Virus record (IMG/VR): IMGVR_UViG_3300046756_000343
Location: 1 to 38,012 of that record
DNA: 38,012 nucleotides
Strand: one strand, 5' to 3'
DNA from: a virus
How positions within the stretch are numbered: position 1 is the first letter of the stretch; each line of letters begins with the position of its first letter. The notes beneath the pieces were generated by a model. The model ran no database searches, was not told the DNA's origin, and saw only the letters and a program-made list of their open reading frames with translations. A program made the position numbers and the translations under genes. Positions 976 to 3,914 of the stretch are shown here, piece after piece.

Positions 976-1944
976 TTAATTTATACTTTCTTCATATTTT
1001 TTTCTTGCCAATATTTTAGCCTCTCTTGATTGATGTTTATTTTTTAACCCTTTAATCATACTTGCAAGGTTGCTAGGATTATAGATAGTCAATCCTGTTG
1101 AGTTAGTTCTAATTAACTCTGCCTCATCAACTTGTATTCCAAGTTCAGTTGCAAGTTCAATACCCTCTGAAAGATATCTATATGCTTTCAATCCAATTTT
1201 TAATTGATCGCATTGTTTGGTAATACTATCAATCCATGTTTTATGTTTAGATACTAGATTACCTTTTGCAATTCGCCATGCCTCAAATTGTTTGTACTCA
1301 TCTTTGGTACATGCGATTGCTCTTGAACGACAGTAAGAAGTTCCAATGACATCAAGATAGTATTGCTCGTTAAAAGTTTTTGCCATACCTGTATTACCAC
1401 TCTCGCCATTATAACTATGACCACTATATCCAAGTGCTTTCATACACGCGTCAACATGTTTTGTTTTGTGTGGGTTATCTTTGTTCTCGGATTGTTGAGC
1501 AAAAATATCTGGGTTGCAATCCATAGCTTTTAAATCTTCTCTATAATATGCAACTGCAAACTCTTTACCCTCGTCGCCACTATACTCACTACCATTTAGA
1601 TTACCAAATAAACCAAAATCAAAATGTGATTTAGTTTCAGTTATCTCGCCCTCATCATCTTTGTCCTCACTATGAGCAAAGTAAAAGCATTTATCTTTTG
1701 CAACAACATCACAAGGGTTTCCATATTTTTTTTTGAAAGTTCTTAAAGTTGCAACATCTTCTGGTGGATATGATCTCTCAACAACATCAACTGCAAGTCT
1801 ATGTGCTTGTTCATATTGTCTATCAACATCTTCTCTTGCTTGAAGAAATGCCTCTCGTTCTTGCGTGTCCTCATTCTCAAAAACATTTTTTATTTTATTA
1901 AAGAGTTTGTTTCGCAACTCTGTATTCATTCTTATTTTTGTCAT
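976..1944 (-). CDS. Hypothetical protein, 322 aa
   Basis: This 322-residue soluble protein has an acidic central segment and charged helical ends. Its N-terminus (residues 1-60) is rich in Arg/Glu. Four cysteines are scattered and do not form an obvious metal site. I recognise no enzyme motif. The ATG at 1944 follows AGAAAGG. The upstream region carries a dyad and divergent TTGACA boxes (1986-2008), so it may share control with the plus-strand RNA region. Its size and isolated position between promoters suggest an early phage protein of unknown role. Confidence 0.7.
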   Translation of the reverse strand: MTKIRMNTELRNKLFNKIKNVFENEDTQEREAFLQAREDVDRQYEQAHRLAVDVVERSYPPEDVATLRTFKKKYGNPCDVVAKDKCFYFAHSEDKDDEGEITETKSHFDFGLFGNLNGSEYSGDEGKEFAVAYYREDLKAMDCNPDIFAQQSENKDNPHKTKHVDACMKALGYSGHSYNGESGNTGMAKTFNEQYYLDVIGTSYCRSRAIACTKDEYKQFEAWRIAKGNLVSKHKTWIDSITKQCDQLKIGLKAYRYLSEGIELATELGIQVDEAELIRTNSTGLTIYNPSNLASMIKGLKNKHQSREAKILARKKYEESIN

Positions 1945-1985: not shown

Positions 1986-2017
1986 CTATTGACATTCTTT
2001 GTCAATAGGATTATATA
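1986..2017 (+). promoter_or_regulatory. Plus-strand promoter with dyad over the -35, driving the structured RNA region
   Basis: TTGACA (1989-1994), a 17-bp spacer and TATATA (2012-2017, followed by GGAT) form a good sigma70 promoter pointing right, with a predicted start near 2024. The -35 lies in an inverted repeat: CTATTGACA (1986-1994), centre TTCTT, TGTCAATAG (2000-2008). The right arm also supplies a minus-strand TTGACA facing the 322-aa gene, although the spacing to a minus-strand -10 is poor. The site could be an operator shared by divergent transcripts. Confidence 0.6.
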
Positions 2018-2023
2018 GGATTT

Positions 2024-2641
2024 ATTCCCTTTTGCTAATATACGGAATTAAAAAACTCAAATTAGCAGGATTACGGCTAGAAAGGTTTGATCCCGAGTAT
2101 AGCCCACTGATCCCTGATCTACTGGATGGATGCATCCATATAGACCCACGCGATTTATGGGTTCAGTAGATCTGGGATCAGTCATTAATGACTGTGAAGA
2201 TAAACACTATAACACGGCGGACGCTTAAGGGTACCCCGAATGTTGACTGAAGGACAGGGCGTCAACTCCCCGCGTAGCATAGTGACTGATCAGTAAAATT
2301 TTATGGATCTACAATGCTCTACCATTGTAGGTCCTAAGATTATTATTTGCTGGACCCTGACAGGTGATAACCTGTTAGGCCTGTTGCCCGGGCTGTTAAA
2401 ATAAAGCACGCCGGCCTCAACTCAGGGTCCTGCTAATGATGACCAAGTTAGGGGTACATATCTTGCCTATGGCATTTCCCTGGACCTAAGCAGTGACCGA
2501 AAGGTAGCGTCGATACTTGGACCAGTTGCGCTGGCTTCCCTGATCAGGATTGCGCAGCTGGTATATGAATTGTGGCCCATTGGTCTTGGACGCTATGCGC
2601 GGCACGCGTTAGGAATAATCTCGGGTGAGACCTACCGAGAG
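2024..2641 (+). ncRNA. Candidate large structured noncoding RNA (about 620 nt)
   Basis: No credible reading frame occupies this stretch. It is near 50% G+C by eye in an otherwise roughly 30% G+C genome. Helices seen directly: 2033-2039/2061-2067; 2106-2124/2164-2182 (19 positions, one T/T mismatch), enclosing hairpins 2126-2139 and 2143-2148/2158-2163; 2242-2247/2261-2266; 2305-2316/2323-2334 (12 bp, 6-nt loop); 2352-2360/2422-2430, enclosing 2361-2365/2370-2374 and 2377-2381/2413-2417; 2443-2448/2515-2520; 2521-2531/2552-2562 (11 bp), enclosing 2539-2548; 2619-2624/2635-2640. A short GAAA tetraloop hairpin lies at 2496-2505. Wobbles T2308/G2331, T2526/G2557 and G2143/T2163 are G-U only in a plus-strand RNA. 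A promoter at 1989-2017 points into it. I do not recognise tRNA, tmRNA, RNase P RNA or a group I/II intron. Length and complexity recall large phage RNAs such as GOLLD or ROOL, but I cannot assign it to either. The 3' end is uncertain. Confidence 0.6.
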
Positions 2642-2643
2642 CC

Positions 2644-2665
2644 ACAAGCAGCAAGCAACAAGCGC
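2644..2665. repeat. AAGCnnC 7-bp repeat array A
   Basis: About three units of the AAGCnnC heptamer end in the palindrome CAAGCGCTTG (2659-2668), which runs directly into the -35 box of the next promoter. The same unit forms arrays at 2948-2994 and 3764-3914. Arrays A and B both sit immediately upstream of a plus-strand TTGACA, so protein binding next to the promoter is a reasonable inference. Confidence 0.65.
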
Positions 2666-2694
2666 TTGACAGCTGGTGAAGGATAATATAGGAT
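2666..2694 (+). promoter_or_regulatory. Sigma70-like promoter, TTGACA-N17-TAGGAT
   Basis: TTGACA (2666-2671), a 17-bp spacer and TAGGAT (2689-2694) match the promoter at 202-230 in form. The site lies between repeat array A and the 47-aa gene starting at 2719, whose AGAAAG ribosome binding site lies just downstream. It would start a second plus-strand transcript after the structured RNA region. Confidence 0.6.
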
Positions 2695-2862: not shown

Positions 2863-3049
2863 CGATCTTACCCATTATTTCTTGCGGCCGCATAACCAGC
2901 TGCCGCAAGGTTACCTGGACCATTGCAAGAAATTTTTTAAAGAGTTAAGCCTGAAGCAGCAAGCGGCAAGCGAAAAGCAACAAGCCGCAAGCCGGGACCT
3001 TGACAAGTCACCTGAACCATGTTATAGGATAATAAAGGAGAAATTATGA
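2846..3049 (+). CDS. Small hypothetical protein with repeat-derived C-terminus
   Basis: This 67-residue frame starts at ATG 2846 and stops at TGA in an ATGA overlap with the GP88-like gene. Residues 1-34 look like ordinary protein. Residues about 35-50 (LKQQAASEKQQAAS) are the direct translation of AAGCnnC array B. The last ~17 residues are encoded by the promoter and ribosome binding site of the next gene. The repeat may have inserted at the 3' end of a shorter gene and extended it. It could also be read-through without function. No family is recognised. Confidence 0.45.
   Translation: MKIKNNDLTHYFLRPHNQLPQGYLDHCKKFFKELSLKQQAASEKQQAASRDLDKSPEPCYRIIKEKL
2948..2994. repeat. AAGCnnC 7-bp repeat array B
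   Basis: Six to seven AAGCnnC-like units (AAGCAGC, AAGCGGC, AAGCGAA, AAGCAAC, AAGCCGC) end a few bases before TTGACA at 3000. The unit length of 7 is not a multiple of 3, and the unit contains no stop codon in any forward frame, so open frames cross it by default. It translates as KQQAAS in the 67-aa ORF. Confidence 0.65.
3000..3028 (+). promoter_or_regulatory. Sigma70-like promoter for the GP88-like gene
   Basis: TTGACA (3000-3005), a 17-bp spacer and TATAGG (3023-3028, within TATAGGATAATA) are followed by AAAGGAG and ATG at 3046. It lies inside the 3' end of the 67-aa ORF. It repeats the TTGACA / TATAGGAT arrangement seen at 202, 1989 and 2666. Confidence 0.6.
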
Positions 3050-3645
3050 AAGTTACAGAAGCATTAAAAATAACAGACTCATTCACTAGAACCTCTAAGA
3101 TGCCTGGCTTAAGTTACAGCCTGCCAGCGTGGGCCTGCCAGACTGGCTCCAAGCTCAGGAAGGTTAAGACTTCACCGTGTTATGGCTGTTATGCATTAAA
3201 AGGAAATTATACTAGGTACCCTGCAATCAGGGAAGCGCAATATAGAAGGCTGGACGCTATCAGTAATCCTAAATGGGTTCAAGCAATGGCCGCTGTTATC
3301 AAGCGTCAAAAATGGTTTAGATGGCATGACGCGGGAGATGTACAATCTCATGAGCATATGGCAAAAATTATTGAAGTATGCAAGCTCACACCTGACACCA
3401 AACACTGGTTACCAACTCAAGAGCGGCAATACCTGCCAGCGCCTGAAGAGGTTCCAGCAAATTTAATTATTAGGTTATCCGCTGCACGTGTAGACGGGAC
3501 CGCTGGCAACGCCTGGTCGCATTCGTCAACAGTGGTGACCGATGGGAGCCCGAGCTGTCCAGCGCCTAATCAGGGCGGCCAGTGTTTAGACTGTCGAGCA
3601 TGCTGGAATAAAGATATAAAAAATGTTAGTTATGGTAAACACTAA
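3046..3645 (+). CDS. GP88-like phage protein, 199 aa
   Basis: This Cys-rich 199-residue protein resembles the phage gene 88 family (Pfam GP88, named for a mycobacteriophage protein of unknown function). Visible features: an S-P-C-Y-G-C-Y-A motif near residues 43-50; WHDAGD near residue 95; WLPTQER near 122; and a C-terminal cluster CPAPNQGGQCLDCRACW around residues 170-186. Cysteine pairs at both ends suggest a metal or Fe-S site, which is inference. The start is well supported by AAAGGAG and an ATGA overlap with the preceding ORF. G+C is higher than in neighbouring minus-strand genes, consistent with a separate origin for this block. Confidence 0.75.
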   Translation: MKVTEALKITDSFTRTSKMPGLSYSLPAWACQTGSKLRKVKTSPCYGCYALKGNYTRYPAIREAQYRRLDAISNPKWVQAMAAVIKRQKWFRWHDAGDVQSHEHMAKIIEVCKLTPDTKHWLPTQERQYLPAPEEVPANLIIRLSAARVDGTAGNAWSHSSTVVTDGSPSCPAPNQGGQCLDCRACWNKDIKNVSYGKH

Positions 3646-3647
3646 AA

Positions 3648-3872
3648 ATGACATTTGTTTTCAAACATCCAAAATTTTACAGAATCCCTAGGGATAAAAC
3701 GGATCAGGTCATTAGCCGCGAAGACTCGACGGAGGCTAGAAGGCGTGCACCTGGTCCGGGCCAAAGCCACAAGCCTAAAGCAGCAAGCAACAAGCCTGAA
3801 GCAACAAGCAGCAAGCAAGAAGCATCAAGCCCCAAGCTCTTGAAGAAACAAGCAACAAGCAGCAAGCCCTGA
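3648..3872 (+). CDS. Possible small ORF running into repeat array C (doubtful)
   Basis: A 74-residue frame begins 2 bases after the GP88-like stop. Residues 1-37 (MTFVFKHPKFYRIPRD at the start) could be genuine coding sequence. The second half is a translation of the AAGCnnC array (KPKAASNKPEATSSK type). Other frames through the array are equally open, so length is no evidence here. There is no clear ribosome binding site. It may be a short real gene elongated by repeats, or noncoding. Confidence 0.3.
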   Translation: MTFVFKHPKFYRIPRDKTDQVISREDSTEARRRAPGPGQSHKPKAASNKPEATSSKQEASSPKLLKKQATSSKP

Positions 3873-3914
3873 GCAACAAGCCTCAAGCTTAAAGCCGCAA
3901 GCGGCAAGCTCTTG
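3764..3914. repeat. AAGCnnC 7-bp repeat array C (largest)
   Basis: Roughly 18-20 degenerate units of AAGCnnC cover about 150 bp between convergent genes (AAGCAGC, AAGCAAC, AAGCCTG, AAGCATC, AAGCCGC, AAGCGGC and others, with AAGCTCTTG twice). It extends into the 3' end of the VRR-NUC gene on the minus strand and of a weak ORF on the plus strand. Arrays A and B carry the same unit. Function is unknown; iteron-like protein binding, a replication or packaging site, or a mobile repeat are possibilities. Confidence 0.75.

Follow-up and report, generated by a model that had tools for sequence, protein, structure and literature searches.

A probable multi-domain, trans-acting and self-dimerising noncoding RNA with fast-evolving peripheral domains in pelagiphages

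What is encoded in a gap of some 620 nt between two divergent genes of a virus that infects the marine bacterium SAR11 and whose relatives include the cultured pelagiphage HTVC027P? The sequence analysed here (the window) is an IMG/VR virus record of 38,012 bases, and the region in question spans 2024–2641. One flank is formed by a gene for a 322-aa protein (976..1944, minus strand; 520 IMG/VR relatives), used here as a synteny marker and without a match in a Pfam search. The other is a GP88 protein gene (3046..3645, plus strand; PF17338, E = 1.2e-28). The same divergent pair encloses the region in nearly all homologous loci. The initial annotation proposed a single large structured RNA of unrecognised class, lying in a gene-free, GC-rich block.

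A protein-coding explanation fails. As first reported, the region holds no credible ORF: none is listed for 2024–2641 and none of at least 60 aa occurs in 1993–2845. The longest stop-free stretch in 2000–2700 reaches 93 codons, with no start that would give 60 aa, and the length of the inner part of module B (described below) changes by amounts not divisible by three. A conserved protein frame across the region, named at the outset as evidence against an RNA, was not found. The region is GC-rich (47.6% vs 32.2% for the rest of the window), but the enrichment is 1.5-fold rather than the near doubling first described, and the block is not confined to gene-free DNA, since it extends to about 4000 through coding sequence. 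ARAGORN detected no tRNA or tmRNA in the window. Short GC-rich direct repeats (GCAAGCAACAAGC...) occur at 2640–2664, 2955–2995 and 3765–3912, reaching into ORF ends; the first two groups lie immediately 5′ of TTGACA promoter-like sites, and related stretches are found in most homologous gaps.

A conserved promoter precedes the region in most homologues. On the plus strand, TTGACA-N17-TATATA (1989..2017) has its −35 box inside the palindrome TTGACATTCTTTGTCAA and a predicted start near 2024. Of 144 unique homologous gaps, 101 have TTGAC[AT]-N17-TATA within their first 250 nt; allowing spacers of 15–18 gives a first promoter in 84 of 121 complete gaps (vs 0.2 in shuffles). The −35 palindrome (TTGACA..TGTCAA, 1981–2017) is shared with the divergent 322-aa gene and is possibly a bidirectional promoter or an operator.

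Folding energy was rejected as evidence of strand: the plus strand folds at −233 kcal/mol vs −196.8 ± 8.7 in shuffles (z = −4.2), and the minus strand also folds better than its shuffles (z = −5.1), which leaves the strand undecided by energy alone. Evidence for the plus strand comes from the promoter, from the uniform orientation of modules and from base-pair chemistry. Relative to the flanking genes, modules B (190/190) and D (102/102) always lie on the GP88 strand, in loci that partly overlap in sequence. In group G1 of module B, a tally gave about 47 G-U cells vs about 3 A-C cells, mostly pseudoknot cells in related sequences. The stems first drawn at 2106–2182, 2305–2334, 2352–2430 and 2521–2562 are present base by base, as are the wobbles T2308–G2331 and T2526–G2557. 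A long-range helix of the minimum-energy fold (2061–2070/2427–2436) was set aside because both of its strands have better-supported local partners. Covariation against a tree-preserving null, together with an Rfam match, upholds the proposal of a structured noncoding RNA, and that the region is a structured plus-strand RNA can be held with high confidence.

The Rfam match identifies one domain, and all module coordinates given here are on the plus strand. Module E (2443..2562) is Flavobacterium-1 RNA (RF02976): it fits the full model (positions 1–121 of 121) with 115.5 bits, twice the gathering score of 58.9, and is the one family found by cmscan at the gathering threshold across the whole window. 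It covers 120 of about 620 nt, and 2024–2641 as a whole therefore lies outside the family. About one fifth of what was called unrecognised is thus a catalogued RNA, but for the leader and modules B, C, D and F, which lack an Rfam match, that description holds; these modules of the chain are new. When 2010–2680 (671 nt) was compared with 4227 Rfam families at E ≤ 10, the matches besides RF02976 were two very weak and evidently chance ones. Of 19 further pelagiphage-type loci that were scanned, 9 also contain Flavobacterium-1. Differences from the catalogued RNA are that E is here one domain of a longer pelagiphage array, in some cases lies at a second site, and always carries a self-complementary loop in its 3′ hairpin. 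Covariation and RNAalifold analysis of the whole E alignment were uninformative because the variable hairpin was misaligned. A scan of a genome collection with an 18-nt core of E gave 20 matches: L115 lacked an Rfam match, L119 was partial and the remainder had no match to a module profile. The L119 match (974–1061, in a Rhodospirillaceae MAG) is a weak, partial resemblance to E.

Modules C and F are smaller. C (2297..2341; 8 homologues) is a hairpin with a 12-bp stem (2305–2316/2323–2334), while F (2570..2647; 18 homologues) is closed by TTGTGGC/GCCACAA. Fragments of F occur at 94–97% identity in pelagiphages Kolga, Aegir, HTVC021P and HTVC048P. Hairpins of F are intergenic in the unrelated pelagiphages Aegir, Kolga and HTVC021P (L027:2997-3037, L028:2997-3037 and L029:2082-2125).

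Module B (2176..2292) is a new structured RNA, present in about 136 distinct IMG/VR loci among the matches listed and in HTVC027P, consistently on one strand of the 322-aa/GP88 gap, and without a match in Rfam. Its helices are P0 (2176–2183/2284–2291), P1 (CACTA 2205–2209/TAGTG 2280–2284), P2 (2215–2221/2267–2272), P3 (2229–2230/2235–2236) and P4 (2242–2245/2263–2266), with a pseudoknot (2221–2224/2259–2262) and a conserved internal loop AACA/CGTAGC. The outer parts are nearly invariant (GATCAGTC ... AACACTATAACA ... CGTAGCATAGTGACTGATC). Hypervariable in sequence (96 distinct versions, almost all 51–64 nt long), the inner domain is constant in architecture: P2 is followed by a joining strand (X) and by hairpins P3 and P4, and X pairs with the P4 loop at its 3′ end. 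The compact pseudoknot suggested a self-cleaving ribozyme, a candidate rejected for want of an Rfam match at a permissive threshold.

The initial annotation made covariation in homologous gaps a test of the RNA, and covariation above background was found in B and in the socket stems described below. The null preserves the tree: substitutions reconstructed by FastTree and Fitch were reassigned among columns, following the approach of R-scape. In four alignments of B, a test of all column pairs gave four significant pairs, all of them base pairs, one being seen twice. Limited to the proposed pairs, the test was significant for P2, P4 and the pseudoknot in groups G1 (36 sequences) and G2 (32), and for P3, P4 and the pseudoknot in G3 (17). 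Swapping X among 26 cluster representatives lowered the pseudoknot pairing score (p = 0.001). P0 and P1 give little covariation because they hardly vary; P0 is near-invariant, with compensated exceptions from C-G to T-A (G1) and from G-C to A-T (G3).

These pairs bear on a DNA-level reading, in which the region is a recombination hot spot or a packaging or replication site and its palindromes are protein-binding sites in DNA. Free recombination of modules would suit it, as would the position of the locus in HTVC027P between the large and small terminase genes. Against this, the pseudoknot, P2, P4 and the socket stems covary as RNA pairs, the strand is uniform, and the GP88 relative 023Pt_psg01, in the same terminase neighbourhood, matches none of the modules. 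A DNA element is accordingly very improbable, and the region is treated below as RNA.

Around B lie elements that change in a different manner: as whole pieces. The 5′ leader (2024..2067; alpha type, 31 homologues of the same type) is an H-type pseudoknot with an ATTCC/GGAAT stem, in which the loop GCTAAT (2034–2039) pairs with ATTAGC (2061–2066); loop and partner change together in a compensated variant (GTTATT/AATAAC), and in homologues other leader types replace the alpha type after the promoter. Socket 1 (2106..2182), ACTGATCCC-U-GATCTACT / AGTAGATC-U-GGGATCAGT, holds the exchangeable cap H. A complement test supports it: GGGATCAG (GGGAT(C/T)AG copies) at the 5′ edge of B has an exact 8-nt complement upstream in 118 of 120 cases, a match that shuffled 8-mers reach at 0.5%. 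Three variants, GAGATCAG, GCGATCAG and AGGATCAG (GAG, GCG, AGG), have correspondingly changed partners, and four loci without the triplet also lack the partner. Socket 2 (2343..2437), with cap D, has the stem TTAGC-U-GGACC/GGTCC-U-GCTAA. Under the tree-preserving null, socket 2 and D show 16 column pairs at E ≤ 0.05 in 43 sequences, 10 of which are at least 80% standard-paired, and the unit is always found in the 322-aa/GP88 gap on the same strand. Both sockets share one plan: helix, U-U mismatch, helix.

The hairpin caps are exchanged between the two sockets and between genomes. Cap H (2126..2163; 38 nt, two small hairpins) recurs after module B elsewhere, including a 100% identical copy in L018. 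Caps in the first slot of 29 loci are also present after B in other genomes; L082 and L160, for example, share 70 nt at 100% in this way. Among 130 loci the caps form 63 clusters, and each common cap occurs with several types of B. As a description of the genomes, a multi-domain RNA whose peripheral hairpins are exchanged is very likely correct. A more specific form, in which constant sockets around a dimerising pseudoknot core take interchangeable caps traded between phages, is proposed tentatively, at somewhat less than even likelihood.

How widespread and how stable this arrangement is was assessed by three IMG/VR searches: a scan with a 22-nt core of Flavobacterium-1, a search with the 322-aa protein (520 relatives, 80 kept) and a scan with a 20-nt core of B (at least 119 stretches). 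Combined, they gave some 200 loci and 95 or more distinct inner B sequences among the matches listed. The protein search gave 63 loci in which both flanks are present; 53 of them have B, 22 E, 21 D and 9 F. Gaps between the same genes lack B, D and E in 8 of the 63, and the RNA is therefore not universal. Across 20 long virus records and three complete phage genomes there is one B per B-bearing and one E per E-bearing record; each of the 13 long records with B has a single copy of it, and the shorter contig L008 has two copies.

The claim that all this is one large RNA was only partly borne out: the modules lie nearly end to end, but they are separable, and E stands elsewhere in 13–14 loci. 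Among loci with both flanks, 13 have E at another position of the locus and one (L042) has it at both positions; relocated copies are on the opposite strand, kilobases away. Flavobacterium-1 is seen at other phage-genome sites on the opposite strand in L017, L040, L052, L071, L088, L096, L103, L152, L186, L205, L226 and L244; module F sometimes lies alongside a relocated copy (L229, L264, L270). The separability of E from B weakens the single-molecule reading, and its relocation leaves one large RNA not established. Several separate small RNAs, processed or independently transcribed, with B and E acting independently, are a rival reading, given clearly less than even likelihood. Occurrence of E once per genome, either here or at the distant site, a variable module order (D before or after B) and a closing stem on each module all suit such RNAs. 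The near end-to-end packing behind a single promoter does not, nor does the adjacency of B and E in the same order in most loci, and a promoter scan of 2024–2640 found no internal plus-strand promoter.

Two sets of loops suggest how copies of the RNA might meet. L3 of B (2231..2234) is a self-complementary tetraloop, GUAC here; across homologues it takes at least eight palindromic states (GATC, GTAC, AGCT, ATAT, TTAA, CTAG, CCGG, GGCC). A palindromic hexamer occurs in the P3 region of 62 of 96 B sequences (vs 26 ± 4 in shuffles); at one start position 39 of the 96 have one, of seven kinds, six of which recur in at least two sequences. Exceptions to the palindromic L3 are ATTC, CTTAG, one subgroup and a few single sequences. 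The loop of the 3′ hairpin of E, CCTGATCAGG (2539..2548), is self-complementary in all 155 E copies (TGATCA, TGGCCA, GTGCAC, GTCGAC). A self-complementary loop cannot pair with itself within one molecule. Pairing between the B and E loops was considered and rejected: their palindromes are unmatched within genomes, and like-with-like pairing is therefore the simplest reading. Retroviral dimer-initiation kissing loops are likewise self-complementary hexamer loops that vary as palindromes; those RNAs are unrelated to this one, and the apparent likeness lies in the palindromic variation of the loop sequence. In OLE and GOLLD, palindrome switching has been taken as support for conserved intermolecular kissing loops (PMC12286853), and the loops of both B and E switch between palindromes in the way of such symmetric contacts. 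By this analogy, RNA copies joined through like loops of B and E are moderately favoured.

The resemblance to those RNAs raises the possibility of a GOLLD/ROOL-kind cage, i.e. a closed homo-oligomer self-assembled from copies of one long RNA. The locus RNA is phage-borne, about 600 nt long, multi-domain and pseudoknotted, with variable regions like those of GOLLD and ROOL, and its palindrome-switching loops recall L21a of GOLLD and L9.3 of OLE, the latter (GGCC, GAUC, AGCU) joining two OLE copies (PMC12286853). The suggested GOLLD/ROOL-type identity was not confirmed, however: cmscan gave no match to GOLLD, ROOL, HEARO or IMES, the RNA is shorter than GOLLD, and domain content is mosaic, with turnover far above that expected of a precisely packed cage. 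The window contains no tRNA, whereas GOLLD and ROOL often lie near tRNA islands (PMC12286853). OLE is a cellular rather than a phage RNA, and cmscan found no match to it either. The likeness to all three is best taken as an analogy, drawn from large size, carriage by a phage and loops that switch between palindromes, and a cage is unlikely.

A role in cis must also be weighed, in which the region would act as a riboregulator, the 5′ leader of the ORF2719/GP88 transcription unit that lies downstream. The RNA lies on the same strand, directly upstream in HTVC027P (L026) of gp33/gp34 (the GP88 protein and a small ORF), and RNA-seq of that phage places these two genes in a temporal cluster of their own at 6–9 h (PMC12753301). 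However, the downstream ORFs have their own promoter, TTGACA-N17-TAGGAT (2666..2694, plus strand; 10/12 consensus matches), and 92 of 121 gaps have a TTGAC[AT]-N15-18-TATA site within their last 700 nt (vs 0.6 in shuffles). A search for a terminator-like stem between the RNA and the ORFs found none, and E is present at unrelated sites too. A cis-acting leader is thus also improbable.

The preferred reading is a multi-domain phage noncoding RNA that probably acts in trans, dimerises with itself and has fast-evolving peripheral domains. Its domains, covariation, strand, exchangeability and conserved promoter were established by computation. A sigma-70-type promoter at 1989–2017 would drive a noncoding transcript of about 620 nt from the plus strand, which is consistent with HTVC027P having no RNA polymerase of its own and depending on that of the host (PMC12753301). 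The separate 6–9 h cluster of gp34 and gp33 also counts in favour of this reading. Transcribed as one molecule, the RNA would consist of independently folding domains: the leader, two capped sockets, the pseudoknotted core B, Flavobacterium-1 (E) and the 3′ domain F. The palindromic loops in B and E might let copies pair, and the dimer or multimer might act in trans, early to middle in infection. It could serve as a multivalent scaffold or decoy, with rapidly changing caps that would bind factors of the host or of rival phages. This scaffold or decoy function, to which module turnover points, is the most tentative step, at clearly less than even likelihood; the explanation taken whole, from one self-pairing trans-acting RNA to scaffold or decoy, is judged about evenly balanced.

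Few organisms on Earth are as abundant as SAR11 and its phages. If the more specific form with traded caps is right, the SAR11 phage population carries a combinatorial library of RNA effectors. A fast-evolving modular RNA in such common phages would give them a new means of taking over the host or of conflict. The orphan Flavobacterium-1 RNA gains a testable context in the cultured phage HTVC027P, for which directional RNA-seq libraries exist (PRJNA1253180), counted per annotated gene with the RNA region unannotated (PMC12753301). The locus would also add to the natural examples of palindrome switching as a pointer to RNA–RNA self-assembly.
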